DNA of 21,291 nucleotides from positions 1 through 21,291 of IMG/VR virus record IMGVR_UViG_3300037189_017163; one strand, given 5' to 3'. The translations under genes and the position numbers were made by a program. How positions within the stretch are numbered: position 1 is the first letter of the stretch; each line of letters opens with the position of its first letter. The stretch comes from a virus. Under the pieces are notes generated by a model. It was not told the DNA's origin and made no database searches. It saw only the letters and a list, made by a program, of their open reading frames with translations. Shown in pieces: positions 3,476-11,444 of the stretch.

Positions 3476-5748
3476 ACATTGTCGATCAAACCGTTGCCCT
3501 GTTCTCGCCCCGCGCGGCCCTGCGCCGGGAGATTGCGCGTCAGAAGCTAACTGCCTTCAGCCGCTTTGATGCGGCCAAGATTACCCGCGCCCGACCGCAG
3601 GCTCGTCGCAATATGCCCGCCGAGCAGATCGGGGGAACGACCGAGCGCATTCAGCTAATGAATCGCGCCCGCGACTTGGATGACAATTTCTCCACCGTCC
3701 GGGCGATCTTGACCCACTTCGTCATTCACACGGCGGGGTCGCTGGCCTACCAAGCCCGCACGGGCGACACGGGCCTTGACCAGCAAGTCGAAGCCTATCT
3801 GCGCGAGTGGTTCCGCAACTGCGACATCACCGGACGGCATAGCCTTCAAAACCTCACGCAGCTAATTTTTCGCTCGGTCTTGGTCGATGGCGATTGCGGA
3901 GTCCTCGTCACTCGGCAAGGCGGCGAGCTAAAGTTGCAGACCGTGACCGCCGACCGGATCGGCAAGGATACTGACCTCGACTCGCTCGATCCTTTCTACT
4001 TTGGCGGCATCACCATTGACGGAGTGGGCCGTCCGGTTAGCTATCGCGTCTTTTCCCGCGACAAGTTCGGAACCTACCGCGACCCCGAGGACATCAACGC
4101 CGATATGTTCTGCCACGTGGCGAACTTTACCCGCCCCGACGAATACCGGGGCCGCTCGGCCTTGGCCGCAATCCTTGATGACGCGCAGGACGTTAGCGAT
4201 CTGATCGAATACGAAAAGCTCGCCGCACGTTGGGCAAGCTCACAGGCAGGGGTGATCAAGACCGAATACGGAGCGGATGAGGAAATGGCCTCGGTTCTGC
4301 GCGGCGACCGCGACCAATTCGGCAACGACACCAAGCTGACCGCGCTGGAGCCGGGGCGCGTGAACTATCTCAACACGGGCGAGTCGATGGAGATGTTTAA
4401 GAGCGGCGACCGCCCCGCCGCAGCCTTCGCCAACTTCGTGCAATACCTTGAGAACCGGATGTGCCGCGCAATGGGAACCTCCGCTCGCGTCATGCTCGAC
4501 CGCCCGAGCGCGGGGCCGGAAGCGCGCAAGGATTTAAGGCAAGCCGAACGGACGTTTGATTTTTGGCGGGGGCAGATGGAAACGCAAATGCTCAACAAGG
4601 TCGTGCGCCTCGCCCTCTTGGACGCCGCCGCCCGAGGCATCTTGCCATCCAATCCCGAGGTCGTGCGCGGCGAATGGCAATGGCCGGGATCGGTCAGCAT
4701 TGACGCAGGCCGTGACGCTCGCGCCGACATCGAACTCTGGCGCATGGGTCTTGCTACCGCTGCGGAGCTTTACGGCGAGGCGGGCCACGATTGGCAGGCC
4801 AGCATGAGGCAGCGGGCCAAGGAGGCGGCGTATATCCGCGAGCTTTCCGTCGAGATGGGCGTTTCCCCGGCAGAGATCAGCGGCGGGGTGGAGTCCGTAG
4901 CGACCGATCCGAACCGCGCCCCGGTCGAGACTCCCGTCCCCGCAGTGCAGCCCACCCGCGAGTTGCAGATCAACCTTTCCCCCGAGAAATACGCACACAT
5001 TGATTTCAAGCCCTCCGAGGCATTAGCCAAGGAAGCCGCGCTCGGTCTGGAGTGGCGCGCTGAATACAACCGGGGCGGAACCGAAGTCGGAGTCGCCCGC
5101 GCCCGTGACCTCTCCAATCGCACAAACCTTTCCCCCGAGACGGTCCGCCGCATGAATAGTTTCCTTGCTCGCCACGAGGTCGATAAGCAGGGGGAGGGGT
5201 TCAGCCCCGGCGAGGACGGCTATCCGTCTGCGGGCCGCATTGCGTGGGCCTTGTGGGGAGGCGATGCGGGACAGTCATGGGCCAGAACGCGCGTAGCACA
5301 AATGGACGCTGCCGACGATAAAGAGGACTTGGCGGAAGTGGGGCCGCGCGGCGGGATCAAGTCATCCCCCAAGGCTCCGAAGTCCGACACCCCGAACCCG
5401 GACCCGAAGGGCGAAGGAACTGCCGAGGGAGACGCCTCCGGTAAACGCGGGGCCGAGGTCACGGCTGAACAAGAAGCTACGCTGCAAGCGAAGGCTGACG
5501 AATTTAACGAGAAGGAAAGCAACACGAAGAACGGCAGGGCCACACTCGGCGCGCTCAAGTCAGTCTTTCAGCGAGGACTCGGAGCGTTCAACACATCGCA
5601 CTCTCCCCGAGTGCAGTCCGCCGAACAGTGGGCATTTGCGCGCGTGAATGCATTCCTTTATCTGCTCAAGAACGGTCGCCCGGAGAATCCAAACTACACG
5701 ACCGATTACGATTTGCTGCCCGAGGATCATCCAAAGGCAGCTAAATAA
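3472..5748 (+). CDS. Lambda-family portal protein with C-terminal extension
   Basis: A 758-residue protein; about residues 1-480 form a lambda-type portal, the dodecameric ring through which DNA enters and leaves the head. Diagnostic stretches are RARDLDDNFSTVRAILTHFV (near 63-82), FRPDE-like FTRPDEYRGRS (near 219) and a GTSARVMLDRPSAG-type segment (near 335). Lambda gpB is about 533 residues, so this one is much longer. Two extra domains follow: about 505-617 with RGGTEVGVARAR and AGRIAWALWGGDAGQSWAR, and about 667-758 with EFNEKES, LKSVFQRGLGAFNTSH and EQWAFARVNAFLYLLKNGRP, which resembles a domain (DUF5824-like, from memory) found in other phage head proteins. A Pro-rich acidic linker separates them. 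Confidence 0.85.
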   Translation: MNIVDQTVALFSPRAALRREIARQKLTAFSRFDAAKITRARPQARRNMPAEQIGGTTERIQLMNRARDLDDNFSTVRAILTHFVIHTAGSLAYQARTGDTGLDQQVEAYLREWFRNCDITGRHSLQNLTQLIFRSVLVDGDCGVLVTRQGGELKLQTVTADRIGKDTDLDSLDPFYFGGITIDGVGRPVSYRVFSRDKFGTYRDPEDINADMFCHVANFTRPDEYRGRSALAAILDDAQDVSDLIEYEKLAARWASSQAGVIKTEYGADEEMASVLRGDRDQFGNDTKLTALEPGRVNYLNTGESMEMFKSGDRPAAAFANFVQYLENRMCRAMGTSARVMLDRPSAGPEARKDLRQAERTFDFWRGQMETQMLNKVVRLALLDAAARGILPSNPEVVRGEWQWPGSVSIDAGRDARADIELWRMGLATAAELYGEAGHDWQASMRQRAKEAAYIRELSVEMGVSPAEISGGVESVATDPNRAPVETPVPAVQPTRELQINLSPEKYAHIDFKPSEALAKEAALGLEWRAEYNRGGTEVGVARARDLSNRTNLSPETVRRMNSFLARHEVDKQGEGFSPGEDGYPSAGRIAWALWGGDAGQSWARTRVAQMDAADDKEDLAEVGPRGGIKSSPKAPKSDTPNPDPKGEGTAEGDASGKRGAEVTAEQEATLQAKADEFNEKESNTKNGRATLGALKSVFQRGLGAFNTSHSPRVQSAEQWAFARVNAFLYLLKNGRPENPNYTTDYDLLPEDHPKAAK

Positions 5749-5839: not shown

Positions 5840-6754
5840 ATGACCAAGACCGACCTCGCCATCCTCACAGGCGACATTGACTCCGCTGCGGCCACGATCA
5901 AAAACGTCTCCGTCATCACGGTGGGCGAGGCGCGCGGCCACGGGATGCAGATTGACGAGAAGACCCTGCTTCAAGTCAAGGCCGCTGCCGAGACTTACGT
6001 TGGCGGGCTGAAGGTCAAGACCGACCACTATTCGGGATTCAACGAGATTGTCGGCGCGCTCAAGAATTTCACTATCGACGGCGATCAACTCCGCGCGGAT
6101 CTCTTTCTGCTCAAGAACCACGACGCGACCGCTCGCATCATCGAGATGGCCGAACTCATGCCCGACACCTTCGGTCTGTCGATTAGCTTTTCCGGTGAGC
6201 ACGAAGAAAGCGGCGAGACGGTTTTAGCCCGCTGCTCTGAAATCTATTCCGCCGATTTAGTCGATACTCCCGCAGCGAACCCGACCGGGCTTTTTAGCGC
6301 GAAGGTTGACAGCGAGAAAAAGGTCATGGACGAAAAGCAAATCGCTGACGCTATCGCCGCCGCTCTGGCTCCGGTGATTGAAGAAATGGCCGCATTGTCG
6401 GCTAAACTCGCCGCTCTTGAAGTGACCGAGGAAAAGGAAATGACCGAGGACAAGCCCGAGGAAATGACCGAAGACAAGGAAATGAAAGAGCACGACAAGG
6501 AAGACATGACTGCAAAGCTGTCTGCCGAACTCTCCGAACTCAAAGCTCTCGTTTCCAACTTTGGCGCGAAGCCCGTTGCCCCCGCCGTTGCGACCGAAAC
6601 AAAGGTTGATGCGAAAGTCCCGACCAATTTTAACGAAGCCCTCGACCTTATCAAAGCCGAAGGATTGAGCGGCAGCGCGGCTACGAAAGCCGTCATCTCC
6701 CGCTTCCCCGACCTTTACCTCGCTGCCCGTAACAGCGGCATTCGCACTCTCTAA
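5840..6754 (+). CDS. Prohead protease fused to scaffold
   Basis: A 304-residue protein with a two-part layout. About residues 20-155 form a herpesvirus assemblin-like maturation protease. H63 in KVKTDHYSGF and S114/S116 in FGLSISFSG are the likely catalytic His and Ser; the block ends in SADLVDTPAANPTGLF. In the family this enzyme cuts scaffold and capsid protein inside the procapsid. About 163-304 form an alpha-helical, very charged scaffold, with repeats of Met-Thr-Glu-Asp (about 199-225) and a helix-turn tail. It lies between portal and decoration gene, as C/Nu3 do in lambda. The start is the ATG 13 bases after a TTGACAG element. Confidence 0.75.
   Translation: MTKTDLAILTGDIDSAAATIKNVSVITVGEARGHGMQIDEKTLLQVKAAAETYVGGLKVKTDHYSGFNEIVGALKNFTIDGDQLRADLFLLKNHDATARIIEMAELMPDTFGLSISFSGEHEESGETVLARCSEIYSADLVDTPAANPTGLFSAKVDSEKKVMDEKQIADAIAAALAPVIEEMAALSAKLAALEVTEEKEMTEDKPEEMTEDKEMKEHDKEDMTAKLSAELSELKALVSNFGAKPVAPAVATETKVDAKVPTNFNEALDLIKAEGLSGSAATKAVISRFPDLYLAARNSGIRTL
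6306..6311 (+). promoter_or_regulatory. Internal TTGACA start-associated element (nested scaffold)
   Basis: A TTGACAG element lies inside the protease gene, 14 bases before an in-frame ATG at 6326. The same window carries this element in front of other starts, so it is unlikely to be chance. A purine-rich GAGAAAAAGG stretch lies between it and the ATG. Confidence 0.45.
6326..6754 (+). CDS. Nested scaffolding protein from an internal start
   Basis: The in-frame ATG at codon 163 of the protease-scaffold gene would give a free scaffold of 142 residues, MDEKQIADAIAA onward, lacking the protease domain. Three things support it: a TTGACAG element 14 bases upstream, a purine-rich AAAAAGG 3 bases before the ATG, and placement exactly at the boundary between protease and helical scaffold domain. 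Lambda uses the same arrangement: Nu3 starts inside gene C. The product would be an acidic helical protein that organises capsid subunits and is then degraded. It is an inference; no protein evidence is available here. Confidence 0.5.
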   Translation: MDEKQIADAIAAALAPVIEEMAALSAKLAALEVTEEKEMTEDKPEEMTEDKEMKEHDKEDMTAKLSAELSELKALVSNFGAKPVAPAVATETKVDAKVPTNFNEALDLIKAEGLSGSAATKAVISRFPDLYLAARNSGIRTL

Positions 6755-7136: not shown

Positions 7137-8099
7137 ATGGCCTACTCCAACTCCAACGCCCTGCCTCGCGCTGAAATCAGCCAAGCTGTTTTCGAGTCGC
7201 AGAGCAACAGCAACGCCCTCCCCCTCATCGGTCTTGAGGTGCTTCCGATTTACTCGGTCGCCGCTCGCTCCGGTGAATACGTGAAGATCGAACTCGGCGG
7301 CGGTGAGGCTTATAACCTCGACGCGCTGAAGACCGATCCCGGCACGAACCGCTCACGGGTCACACGCCGCTTCACAACTGACAATTACGCGACCACCAGC
7401 TTTGAACTCGAGGAGCTTCTGCCCGACGAGACTGCCGCTGACCTTGGCCGCTACTTCGACGTTGAAGTTTCAAGCGCGACCTTCCTTAACAACAGCTTGC
7501 TCCTCTCGCATGAGCAGCGTGTGGCCGATCTGGTCTTCGGTTCCGGGGTTAGCGCGATCAGCGCAACCGCCGCTTATACCGCTGGCTCGGTCGATACGCT
7601 GGACATCGCCAAGGACGTTGATGATGCGATGACCGAACTGGCGAAGAAGAATGTCGTGGCCGACACGCTCATCCTCTCGCTGAATGTGTTCAACCGCATT
7701 CGTCGCACCACCAAGCTGCTCAACAACATCTTCGGCCCCGTCAAGAACGTGGCGCAGGCCCGTCCTGCGACCGCCGAGGAAGTTGCTGCCGCCCTCAATG
7801 TGTCTCGCGTCCTCATCGGTCGCGCTGCCCGCAACGGTGCGAAGAAGGGTCAGAGCTACTCGGGTTCCTTCATCTGGGGCAACAACAAAGTCGTCCTCGC
7901 CAAACTCGGCGCGGGTGAGTTCACCGCTGGCGGATTGGGCCGCACTCTCCTCTGGAACGAGGATAGCCCGACCCCGCTGGTCACCGAGACTTACCGCGAC
8001 GAAGCTCGCCGCAGCAACGTCATCCGCGCTCGCCACAACACGGCAGAGAAGCTGATCGACGCCTCCTGCGCCATCGGCATCGACACGTCCTACGCCTAA
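7137..8099 (+). CDS. Major capsid protein, HK97 fold (gpE-like)
   Basis: A 320-residue protein of the length expected for a lambda E-type capsid protein, which forms the icosahedral shell. The central stretch DDAMTELAKKNVVADTLIL, then NVFNRIRRTTKLLNNIFG (about residues 187-197), is typical of E-family capsids. The E-loop region is likely the acidic, Thr-rich part near residues 80-100. A clean intrinsic terminator follows, which fits a very highly expressed gene whose transcript must be isolated. There is no Shine-Dalgarno site; the ATG follows the same ACTACT leader as the decoration gene. Confidence 0.85.
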   Translation: MAYSNSNALPRAEISQAVFESQSNSNALPLIGLEVLPIYSVAARSGEYVKIELGGGEAYNLDALKTDPGTNRSRVTRRFTTDNYATTSFELEELLPDETAADLGRYFDVEVSSATFLNNSLLLSHEQRVADLVFGSGVSAISATAAYTAGSVDTLDIAKDVDDAMTELAKKNVVADTLILSLNVFNRIRRTTKLLNNIFGPVKNVAQARPATAEEVAAALNVSRVLIGRAARNGAKKGQSYSGSFIWGNNKVVLAKLGAGEFTAGGLGRTLLWNEDSPTPLVTETYRDEARRSNVIRARHNTAEKLIDASCAIGIDTSYA

Positions 8100-8122: not shown

Positions 8123-8156
8123 GAAACCCCACCGGGAGGTGGGGTTTCTGCTTTTT
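8123..8156 (+). terminator. Rho-independent terminator after the capsid gene
   Basis: GAAACCCCACC (8123-8133), loop GGGA, GGTGGGGTTTC (8138-8148): an 11-bp perfect stem, followed by TGCTTTTT. This is the only textbook intrinsic terminator in the window. Its T run flows straight into the TTGACA element before the glycosyltransferase genes. Confidence 0.88.
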
Positions 8157-8160
8157 GACA
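8155..8160 (+). promoter_or_regulatory. TTGACA element, possible promoter of the glycosyltransferase genes
   Basis: TTGACAG with 16 bases to the ATG at 8177. Here a -10-like GCTAAA (8179-8184) follows at an 18-base spacing, with a TG at 8178-8179 overlapping the motif. After a terminator, some new start of transcription is expected. If it is a promoter, the message would start inside the coding frame, so the first ATG could not be used; that contradiction is unresolved. Confidence 0.4.
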
Positions 8161-8176
8161 GTTGCCCTCGGGGCAG

Positions 8177-9880
8177 ATGCTAAATTCTCTTGCGATCTGC
8201 ATGATCGCGGGCAACGAGGAAACATTGATTTCCCGCGCCCTCGATGCCGCCTTTTCCGTCACTCCTCACGTTGTCGTAGTCCGCGCTACCGGGGGCCAGA
8301 CGCCCGATCAAACGCTTGAGATCGCCCGCCAGCGCGGTTGCATTGTCGGGGAATACCACAACAGCCCCGCGACCGCCACATGGCCCTTCGTGGACGATTT
8401 CGCTGCCGCCCGCAATACCGCCTTCCGCCTCGGGGCCGAGGCTGTAGGGCCGCAGGGTTGGCTCATGTGGATGGACTGCGACGATACGCTTTCTGACGGG
8501 GCAGGGGAGGCAATCGCCACCGCCATTAAGGACTGCAAGGAGGAATGGATCTTGGCCGAATACTACCTTCCAGCGCACGGCAAGTCGGTCTGGCGCGAGC
8601 GGATCTTTAAGGCAGGCAGCGCGGGATGGGTCAACGCCGTCCATGAAAAGTGCGTCCCGGTGCTGACCGCCGAGGCCGTGAGCGAGCAGCGCGAGTCAAT
8701 CCAAGTGCGCGTCTGCCGCACGTTTCAAGTCATTCATCATCCGGGGGGCGACAAGACCCCGAGCCAAGAACGCAACATCAACATCCTGCGGTGGAAGGAC
8801 GAGGAAACGCAGCACATCAAGTTCTATTTGCACTACGAATACTACCTCCTCGGCAAGCGGGAGGAGGCCGTGCAATACGGCTTGGAGGCTTTGCGCCTCG
8901 GCAATCTTTGCGGGGTCTATCGCTACGAGGTCTTGATGAACCTTGCCCTCCTTGCCGAGAAGAACGAGCACGGGCAGGATATGTTGCAGCGAGCAATCAA
9001 ACTCTCGCCCGACCGCCGCGAAGCACACAGCTTGCTTGCTCTCTTGCAAATGGACGCAGGGCAGATCGAGGAAGCGATCAAGACCGCCGAACACACGCTG
9101 ACCATCCCGCTGCCCAAGATCACGGAATGGACCCACCGCCCGGACTGCTACGGATGGAAGGGCTTTGCCACGCTGGCATGGGCAAAGCGCATAGCGGGAG
9201 ACGAGGCCGAGGCAGCAAACATCGAAACAAAGATGCTGGAACAGGGCGGCAAGCCTCGCATTTCCCTCTTGCACGCTACCCGGGGCCGTTGGGCGCAGGC
9301 CACCGCGATGATGAACACATGGATGAGCCGTGCCGCTGATCCGTTCCGCGTGGAACATATTTTTGCTATCGACGAGGACGATACCGAAAGCCGCGAAAAG
9401 CTCGCTCGCTTTCGGCACATCATCGTCCCGGTAGGCGGGTATTCCGTAGCTGCGTGGAACTCTGCCGCCAAGGTAGCCACGGGCGATGTCTTGGTGCAGA
9501 TGGCCGATGACTTCATGCCGCCCGCCGAGTGGGACAAGGGCATTCTCGACGCCTTGGGAGGCAACGTCTTCGCGCCCTCCGTCCTGCGCGTTAATGACGG
9601 ACTTCGCAAGGACGGTCTTATCACGATGGCCGTCGTAACCCGCCGCTGGCTGGAGCAGGAAGGCACGCTCTTCGACCCCGCTTTCCGCAATGTGTATTCC
9701 GACAACGATCTGACCGCCCGAGCGCGCAAGGCCGGGGCGATCATCGAAGCCCCGCACCTTCTCTTTGAGCATCAGCACCCAATCGCGGGAAAGGCCGCGA
9801 CAGATGCGACCTACGAGCGCGGCAACGATCTTGCCGAATACGCTCGCGCCGAGGCGATCTACAAAGCGAAGCACACATGA
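8177..9880 (+). CDS. Bifunctional glycosyltransferase: GT2 - TPR - GT2
   Basis: A 567-residue protein. The first GT-A domain (about 1-190) opens with MLNSLAICMIAGNEE and carries the nucleotide-sugar/metal motif D100-C-D-D103 in MWMDCDDTLS. A helical TPR-like region follows (about 195-330, e.g. ALEAIRLG-type pairs and LLALLQMDAGQIEEAIKTAE). A second GT-A domain (about 360-567) starts with RISLLHATRGRW, has D444/D445 in MADDFMPPAEW, and ends in VYSDNDLTARARKAGA and LLFEHQHPI. It would transfer sugars from nucleotide-sugar donors. I chose ATG 8177 over the TTG at 8162, which lacks support. It couples by ATGA to the next gene. Confidence 0.8.
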   Translation: MLNSLAICMIAGNEETLISRALDAAFSVTPHVVVVRATGGQTPDQTLEIARQRGCIVGEYHNSPATATWPFVDDFAAARNTAFRLGAEAVGPQGWLMWMDCDDTLSDGAGEAIATAIKDCKEEWILAEYYLPAHGKSVWRERIFKAGSAGWVNAVHEKCVPVLTAEAVSEQRESIQVRVCRTFQVIHHPGGDKTPSQERNINILRWKDEETQHIKFYLHYEYYLLGKREEAVQYGLEALRLGNLCGVYRYEVLMNLALLAEKNEHGQDMLQRAIKLSPDRREAHSLLALLQMDAGQIEEAIKTAEHTLTIPLPKITEWTHRPDCYGWKGFATLAWAKRIAGDEAEAANIETKMLEQGGKPRISLLHATRGRWAQATAMMNTWMSRAADPFRVEHIFAIDEDDTESREKLARFRHIIVPVGGYSVAAWNSAAKVATGDVLVQMADDFMPPAEWDKGILDALGGNVFAPSVLRVNDGLRKDGLITMAVVTRRWLEQEGTLFDPAFRNVYSDNDLTARARKAGAIIEAPHLLFEHQHPIAGKAATDATYERGNDLAEYARAEAIYKAKHT

Positions 9881-10461
9881 AGCGCGCACCCGTCCCAAAG
9901 CTCTCGGTCCTCATCCCGACCATCACCGAACGGGAGGCCGAGGCAAATGTCCTCTACCGCTCGCTGGAGAAGCGCGTTGCGGGCAGGGATGTCGAGATCC
10001 TCATGCTGCGGGAAAACCTCTTGTGCGGCATCGGGGAGGCCCGCAACAAGCTCCTGCGCGCAGCGGGCGGGAAGTATATCACCTTCCTCGATGACGATGA
10101 CGCGCTGCTCGACGGATACTTCACGCTTGTTCTCGCCGCGATTGAGGATGATGCAGACGTAATCACATACGACCAGCACGCTGTTGTGGACGGAGCCGAA
10201 GGTCGAATCACTTGCTCCCTCGGGGCGCAGCTTCAAGCCTTCCGCCCCGGTGGAGTGGCGACTCGCCCGCCGTGGTTCTGGTGCGCGTGGCGGCGGGAGT
10301 TGGCTTGCGCCTATGCCGTCCCGCAAGTTCGTCGCAACGAGGATGTCCTTTGGCTGCGGCATCTTTGGGCCGAGGCCGAGACGGAGACGCACATTGACCA
10401 AGTGCTGCACCGCTATCAATTCGACTCGACCAAGACCACCCTGCAAAAGCCCAACGTATGA
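9877..10461 (+). CDS. Glycosyltransferase family 2 protein
   Basis: A 194-residue GT-A fold enzyme. It opens with LSVLIPTITEREAEANVLYRS. GIGEARNKLLRAAGGKYITFL leads to the acidic metal/donor motif D72-D-D-D75 in FLDDDDALLDGY. The later R-N-E155-D156 in RNEDVLWLRHLW is the usual acceptor-side catalytic acid motif of GT2 enzymes. It is compact, with no membrane segments, so it is cytoplasmic. The start is the ATGA overlap with the previous gene. It sits in the middle of three glycosyltransferase genes, so it likely adds one sugar of a short glycan. Confidence 0.8.
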   Translation: MKRAPVPKLSVLIPTITEREAEANVLYRSLEKRVAGRDVEILMLRENLLCGIGEARNKLLRAAGGKYITFLDDDDALLDGYFTLVLAAIEDDADVITYDQHAVVDGAEGRITCSLGAQLQAFRPGGVATRPPWFWCAWRRELACAYAVPQVRRNEDVLWLRHLWAEAETETHIDQVLHRYQFDSTKTTLQKPNV

Positions 10462-10468
10462 GGGGGGC

Positions 10469-11119
10469 ATGAAGTGTTCTTTTAACTTTCTGGTTTGCCG
10501 CGCTCTGCACGAATCTCGCACCCGTCAGCTTTGGGACACGACTTGCGCCATGCTGAAGCGAGATCATCCGGACTGCTCGGTGACTTTGCTCGGCGGCTTT
10601 GACCCCGTGGACGAGATCCCTGTCGTTCGGGTTTGCGACTCCGACGATTACGATTCCTGCCACGACAAGGTGTGGTCTGTGCTTCAACGCAATACAGGCG
10701 AGGAAGCCGAGTGGTTTATCATTGCGGACGATGACACATGGTTCAACCTCCCGAATCTGGCATCCATTCTTGCGGTCTTGCCGCAACAAGAAGCGGTGAT
10801 CTGCGGACACATCGGACCCGCGCCTGTGGGAAACAAGGTCATTCTGCACGCGCATGGCGGCTGCGGAATAATTGTTTCTTCTTTGGCCCTGCGAGCATTG
10901 CGCTCTGTGTCCATGCCTTGGCCTCGGCACACAATGTTTAGTGACGTTACCCTTGCGATGCTGGCCGATATAGCCTCGATCCGCTGGTGCAGCATTGTGA
11001 ATATGCACGACCATAGCGCGCCCATCGACAAGATTGATTTGAGCGACACGGTATCCGTTCACGTAAAGGATCGGGTCAGTTTTAGCAGGCTTTACGAAGC
11101 CTTGACAGTGGAGCCGTAG
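10469..11119 (+). CDS. Fringe-like (GT31-type) glycosyltransferase
   Basis: A 216-residue protein with the signature layout of Fringe and related beta-1,3-glycosyltransferases. EAEWFIIADDDTWFN has the D87-D88-D89 metal motif; LHAHGGCGIIVSSLALRAL has the Gly-Gly-x-Gly acceptor loop (G130-G133); FSDVTLAML has D159, the likely catalytic base (compare PDDCTIG in Fringe); NMHDHSAP carries H180/H182 in the place of the metal-binding His. The frame is open upstream to 10184, but that is a shadow of the preceding gene; GAGGGGGGC just before ATG 10469 is a good ribosome site. Unlike animal Fringe it has no signal anchor. Confidence 0.75.
   Translation: MKCSFNFLVCRALHESRTRQLWDTTCAMLKRDHPDCSVTLLGGFDPVDEIPVVRVCDSDDYDSCHDKVWSVLQRNTGEEAEWFIIADDDTWFNLPNLASILAVLPQQEAVICGHIGPAPVGNKVILHAHGGCGIIVSSLALRALRSVSMPWPRHTMFSDVTLAMLADIASIRWCSIVNMHDHSAPIDKIDLSDTVSVHVKDRVSFSRLYEALTVEP
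11102..11107 (+). promoter_or_regulatory. TTGACA start-associated element (connector gene)
   Basis: TTGACAG inside the end of the Fringe-like gene, exactly 13 bases before the ATG at 11121. No -10 box follows at the normal distance. Confidence 0.5.
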
Positions 11120-11120
11120 C

Positions 11121-11444
11121 ATGGCCCTCGACACCGCACGGCTCGCCACCGAACTCGACAGCATGATTGCCGACCTCCCGGCGACCGTGACCTTCGGGGA
11201 ATCGACCTTTAGTGCTGCCGTGACGCAGGGAACGGTTGGCAGCGACATTGCCGAGGGGGGATTTATGCCGAGCCGCGACATCGGCTTGCACGTTAAGTCC
11301 ACCACGACCACCCGCAGCGTCATTGTCGGGAGCAAGCTGACCGTCCTTTCGGCGGGCATCACCAAGACTTACCGCGTCATTTCCATCGAACGCTCGCAAG
11401 ACGGGCAAGAACTCATCATCTCATGCCAGAGTCCGTCCCGTTAA
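11121..11444 (+). CDS. Probable head-tail connector (gpFII-like)
   Basis: A 107-residue beta-rich protein in the position of a head completion protein. The N-terminal helix (TARLATELDSMIADLPATV) is followed by strands in TFGESTFSAAV and a run KSTTTTRSVIVGSKLTVL, then ITKTYRVISIERSQDGQELI. This shape fits gpFII-like proteins that form the interface between head and tail. Identification rests on position and fold impression, not on a unique motif. The gene starts 2 bases after the preceding stop and overlaps the next by 22 bases. Confidence 0.55.
   Translation: MALDTARLATELDSMIADLPATVTFGESTFSAAVTQGTVGSDIAEGGFMPSRDIGLHVKSTTTTRSVIVGSKLTVLSAGITKTYRVISIERSQDGQELIISCQSPSR

Follow-up and report, generated by a model that had tools for sequence, protein, structure and literature searches.

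Glycosylation of the phage virion is known from a few mycobacteriophages and has been discussed mainly as a protection against antibodies. Virion-glycosylation cassettes have been described in mycobacteriophages Che8 (gp108-110) and Corndog (Freeman et al. 2023, as cited in PMC11256854, PMC11600133 and PMC12363180), and in two of these citing papers the Che8 capsid is reported to be glycosylated and gp110 is named as essential (PMC11256854, PMC12363180). A second point of reference is GmaR, a flagellin-modifying enzyme with an N-terminal glycosyltransferase plus TPR, for which its authors propose that the TPR recognizes the protein substrate (PMC9638930).

We have analysed a stretch of 21,291 nt, IMG/VR record IMGVR_UViG_3300037189_017163, referred to below as the window; coordinates are window positions unless a contig is named. 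This phage genome contains tandem cytosolic glycosyltransferase genes, and three intact ORFs on the + strand (GT1, GT2 and a Fringe-like gene) separate the major capsid gene from the connector genes. Reading from the genes alone, we think that this cassette is probably a virion-glycosylation module.

Organization of the cassette

The features of the locus are these:

7137..8099, +, major capsid protein gene (phrog_1005 major head protein, 5e-29), presumed to act as acceptor, alone or alongside others
8123..8148, +, intrinsic terminator hairpin 3' of the capsid gene, kept in both clades of relatives
8155..8179, +, conserved leader, TTGACAG - small hairpin - GGGCAG, ending in the GT1 start codon
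8177..9880, +, GT1, a GT2-TPR-GT2 protein, proposed priming/extending protein glycosyltransferase (PF00535, phrog_13126, phrog_14945)
9877..10461, +, GT2, single-domain family-2 glycosyltransferase (PF00535, 8e-11; phrog_8858, 2.5e-23)
10469..11119, +, Fringe-like (GT31-type) glycosyltransferase in the exchangeable second slot (PF02434, 5e-7)
11121..11444, +, first connector/head-completion gene after the cassette, named from position and synteny only, with no profile match

Genes for a decoration protein, a protease and a lambda-type portal protein, identified with Pfam and PHROG profiles, precede the capsid gene. The portal protein has an unusual extension, in that its C-terminal part (residues 684-736; window 5521-5679) matches DUF5824 slightly below the cut-off, at 7.5e-5. 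An earlier note on this DNA had placed the cassette between the capsid and connector genes and behind the terminator of the capsid gene. The three intact ORFs and their domain profiles bear out this placement, the connectors being named by position only, and the hairpin at 8123-8148 agrees with the terminator. Of the two gene junctions given there, the ATGA overlap of GT1 and GT2 stands, while the gap between GT2 and the Fringe-like gene is 7 bases and not 8. GT1 begins with the ATG at 8177, with an alternative TTG at 8162. The GC3 of GT1 and GT2 (0.75) is nearly equal to that of the capsid gene (0.76).

GT1 resembles protein glycosyltransferases

The first domain of GT1 matches Pfam Glycos_transf_2 (PF00535) at 3e-8, above the curated cut-off, the second matches PHROG 14945 (phrog_14945) at 1e-19, and the TPR has a weak profile match. 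In the AlphaFold (AF2) model (17 sequences, mean pLDDT 77) a GT-A domain is followed by TPR helices and then by a second GT-A domain, at residues 361-567; together with the domains of GT2 and of the Fringe-like protein this accounts for the four catalytic domains counted previously. The motifs conserved in the cassette are DCDD, ADDF/SDND, LDDDD and ADDDTW. The best PDB profile match of GT1 is GmaR, at 2.5e-5, and ThuS comes next at a marginal 0.006. A Foldseek comparison of the model returned the peptide glycosyltransferases SunS/ThuS as the best folds (4e-11); since the global TM-score is low (0.24-0.43) and the rmsd is 15-21, the domains match but a like arrangement is not implied. For the second domain, structure comparison gave several similar GT-A enzymes, with peptide-modifying GalNAc transferases among them but also polysaccharide enzymes. 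Thus, judged by its profile (GmaR) and by its predicted fold (SunS/ThuS), GT1 resembles protein glycosyltransferases.

These likenesses are partial. GmaR, the Listeria flagellin O-GlcNAc transferase, has, like GT1, an N-terminal GT domain and then TPR helices, but these are followed by a linker and antirepressor domains, where GT1 has its second GT-A domain instead; the C-terminal antirepressor domain of GmaR is absent from GT1, where GT-A occupies 361-567. The glycocin S-glycosyltransferases SunS and ThuS, although they are the best structural matches of the model, differ from GT1 in that it possesses an extra C-terminal GT domain, and no bacteriocin precursor peptide gene was found beside GT1, the neighbours of which are phage head genes. 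In those Streptomyces phages that we looked at, matches to the C-terminal domain of GT1 sit outside the head genes.

GT2, the Fringe-like enzyme and the Che8 cassette

GT2 matches Pfam Glycos_transf_2 at 8e-11, above the curated cut-off, and is related to the N-terminal half of Che8 gp108, with which it has a common family (phrog_8858), 31% identity over 175 aa and an hhalign value of 2.4e-18. Inspection of the Che8 genome reveals three glycosyltransferase genes in tandem, as in the window. The sugar methyltransferase function also appears in both settings and is alike in kind: gp108 is similar in its C-terminal half to sugar O-methyltransferases, whereas in relatives of the window a methyltransferase is encoded by a neighbouring gene, and no sequence homology was detectable between these methyltransferases and the methyltransferase half of gp108. 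Unlike the cassette of the window, that of Che8 does not adjoin the capsid gene but is located at the right genome end. No GT2-TPR-GT2 enzyme was detected in Che8, and GT1 has no significant homology to gp108, gp109 or gp110. Isolated distant homologues of GT2 (26-39%) were also found, many belonging to replication-side sugar clusters in phages that we call T4-like because clamp, clamp-loader and RegA-like proteins were recognized there by eye rather than by profile search; membership in the GT2 family alone is therefore no sign of a virion role.

The Fringe-like protein matches PF02434 at 5e-7 (29.7 bits, against a curated cut-off of 21), with an invariant DDD in ADDDTW, and its PDB profile match is a beta-1,3-glucosyltransferase (1.8e-5). 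It has no match in 50,697 annotated phage records. Its AlphaFold model was poor (pLDDT 48) and was left out of the fold comparison. An opposite-strand Fringe-like gene, about 50% identical to that of the window, is present inside the late operon of one relative (L031:9458-10123, -) and also in L035.

The capsid-GT1 pair is conserved in two clades

Searches with the capsid protein and GT1 located GT1 directly 3' of the capsid gene in 32 of 32 close relatives (the first clade). A GT1 profile search then yielded a second clade, in which the capsid protein is at most 53% and GT1 44-45% identical to those of the first, and in all 48 sampled contigs GT1 is again directly 3' of the capsid gene, which lies 95-106 bases upstream. 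This arrangement, seen in 80/80 related contigs, is far beyond chance; the contigs are metagenomic and many are near-identical, so that 80 is not a count of independent events. GT1 is present in every capsid contig with room downstream, and the capsid contigs that lack it (L025, L036, L044, L160 and L162) stop at or inside the capsid gene. The best between-clade identities are 53% for the MCP, 49% for the portal, 44% for the protease, 45% for GT1 and 57% for the tube protein. GT1 thus diverges in step with the head genes, which suggests that it is inherited together with the head module as a core gene, and since it invariably follows the capsid gene in both clades we regard it as a core late gene. 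The dN/dS values of GT1, GT2 and the Fringe-like gene (0.04-0.27) indicate purifying selection. A scan of bacterial and archaeal genomes with the capsid protein revealed no relative, and a scan of cellular genomes with GT1 gave as its only match a phage contig, apparently misbinned in a Thermoleophilia MAG, which again carries the capsid-GT1 pair. The earlier note, which had treated the cassette as an oddity, must be corrected on this point: as a module, the cassette belongs to the conserved core of its lineage (32/32 and 48/48 contigs). The search of related phages for a cassette after the capsid gene, which the same note had suggested, recovered the capsid-GT1 pair throughout, with variation in the genes that follow GT1. 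Full-length GT1 relatives were never found beside LPS or cell-wall genes, a location that had been named as counting against a virion role.

A similar arrangement is seen in an unrelated podovirus, ctKR88 (MW202524), which encodes a GT2-TPR-GT protein in a sugar cluster just after the capsid gene, with further glycosyltransferases and methyltransferases. It differs from the window in its capsid family (phrog_1328), in the partner domain, which is Glycos_transf_1 (GT-B), and in the presence of one gene between the capsid gene and the enzyme.

These comparisons bear on the possibility that the linkage to the capsid gene reflects expression timing only and that the cassette glycosylates a host cytosolic protein or small molecule. 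The conserved terminator could indeed give the cassette separate expression, but the invariance of the capsid linkage across about 50% divergence, the parallel arrangement in ctKR88 and the family link to the Che8 cassette make such a host target very unlikely.

They also bear on a role at the host surface. Conversion of the O-antigen by gtr-type systems involves a GtrA flippase and a membrane-spanning glycosyltransferase. The cassette might change a surface polysaccharide or the wall late in infection, either excluding other phages or keeping released particles off debris. Host-surface conversion by phages is established, enzymes of the GT2 fold commonly build polysaccharides, the distant GT2 relatives are in sugar-gene clusters, and an integrase-like gene in one relative allows for a temperate life. 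We nevertheless consider this explanation unlikely. No membrane-spanning segments are predicted in GT1, GT2 or the Fringe-like protein, and neither gtr-type feature was found, the search for GtrA covering 19 records and the window being a fragment. Further, all relatives found have the module within the head operon, and GT1 is nearest to protein glycosyltransferases.

Finally, the cassette might glycosylate hypermodified phage DNA, as there are TET-type genes in two relatives. One (G002) has a TET oxygenase gene adjoining a TET-associated glycosyltransferase-like gene and the other (G004) has a TET-associated glycosyltransferase:

G002:8931-9290 and 8219-8800, TET oxygenase and adjacent TET-associated glycosyltransferase-like gene
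L055:10357-11133, TET-associated glycosyltransferase in another relative

However, these genes have other genomic locations and are not of the same family as the cassette enzymes. Among 21 first-clade records 20 are without a TET match and 19 without a match to the TET-associated glycosyltransferase, and no thymidylate-synthase/hydroxymethylase family was found in 19 records; most of the records searched, the window included, are fragments. A TET search of the second clade lacked a positive control and was left out of this comparison. One record, G006, is apparently complete, as judged from its 122-base end repeats, and it retains the full cassette without either TET-type gene. Within the window there is no match to the TET-associated DNA glycosyltransferase PF20691. 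Glycosylation of DNA seems to us very unlikely.

Variable slots and block exchange

In contrast to the capsid-GT1 pair, the genes after GT1 vary. Among first-clade contigs GT1 and GT2 may be adjacent or may enclose a methyltransferase gene, either FkbM-like (PF05050, below cut-off) or of the Methyltransf_24 type (2e-21). Between GT2 and the connector gene there may be no gene at all, Fringe, a Glyco_trans_1_2-like (GT-B-like) protein (5.6e-5, marginally under the cut-off), or a methyltransferase with an opposite-strand Fringe gene after it. The slot of the second clade is occupied by DUF5672 and a 220-aa protein, for which PDB, Pfam and PHROG gave no match; a short coiled-coil-like ORF often accompanies them, and in one contig a 195-aa ORF and a methyltransferase replace DUF5672. 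By eye the 195-aa slot ORF in L201 was a candidate sulfotransferase, which we rejected as it has no Pfam match.

The window was also compared with one relative (L033). The DNA identity is 93-95% for GT2 and Fringe, but 69% for GT1, 72% for the protease and 68% for the second connector gene. This high identity amid diverged neighbours points to exchange of GT2 and Fringe between phages as a block.

Probable glycosylation of virion proteins

As a whole, the invariant linkage to the capsid gene, the protein-glycosyltransferase architecture predicted for GT1 and the kinship of GT2 to Che8 gp108 make modification of the virion the best-supported reading of the cassette. The proposal that virion proteins are glycosylated, made when the DNA was first described, gains from these three lines of evidence and is in our estimation quite probably correct. 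Adjacency to the capsid gene alone is no proof of the identity of the acceptor. We suggest that the TPR segment of GT1 would recognize a new virion protein, for which the capsid and decoration proteins, encoded just upstream, are the likeliest candidates. One GT-A domain of GT1 would attach the first sugar and the other would probably extend it, and GT2 and the Fringe-like enzyme may then add further sugars from host nucleotide sugars. The absence of sugar-synthesis genes had been put forward previously in favor of host donors; this does not extend to all relatives, one of which carries a nucleotide-sugar epimerase, and for the window the use of host sugars remains a presumption. In the relatives, the slot genes would add methyl groups or other sugars instead; because these genes vary, the outer glycan would differ among phages while the priming step is kept. 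If so, the cassette works like those of the mycobacteriophages, with one enzyme family in common, and differs from them in position, priming enzyme and modular layout.

What such sugars would do for the particle is a separate matter. Antibody evasion is a doubtful benefit for environmental phages. A tentative possibility, to which we give somewhat less than an even chance, is a serotype-switching coat, in which a fixed, capsid-linked priming enzyme together with exchangeable glycosyltransferase and methyltransferase slots would diversify the outer glycan throughout this uncultured phage lineage, independently of animal immunity. If modification of the virion is confirmed, a phage lineage from environmental metagenomes would have coat sugars as a core trait, modular and linked to the capsid gene, and since selection by antibodies is improbable in that setting, the purpose of phage coat sugars becomes a testable question. 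The cassette also offers candidate protein glycosyltransferases with swappable partners.

Possible expression signals

The terminator and the TTGACA before GT1 are kept in both clades, and the small hairpin up to the GT1 start codon in many first-clade contigs; the terminator/TTGACAG/hairpin leader at 8123-8179 is a possible site of expression control. With a strong conserved terminator between them, the capsid gene and the cassette may differ in their expression. The window contains eight TTGACA hexamers (3211, 5821, 6306, 8155, 11102, 11930, 19243 and 20378). Every one has the orientation of the genes (+) and sits 19-27 nt (mostly 19-22) ahead of the ATG of an open reading frame. The hexamer likewise precedes an ATG in 8/9 cases in G006, 7/11 in G002 and 6/7 in a second-clade contig (L196), compared with a median of 17% for permuted hexamers. 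A sigma-70 motif was considered and rejected, since 19 nt to the start codon leave no room for a -10 box; from its distribution, TTGACA looks like a gene-start signal of an unfamiliar kind. One instance is in the protease gene, where an in-frame internal ATG is preceded by TTGACAG, and by analogy with lambda C/Nu3 the internal ORF (window 6326-6754) probably encodes a nested scaffold protein.
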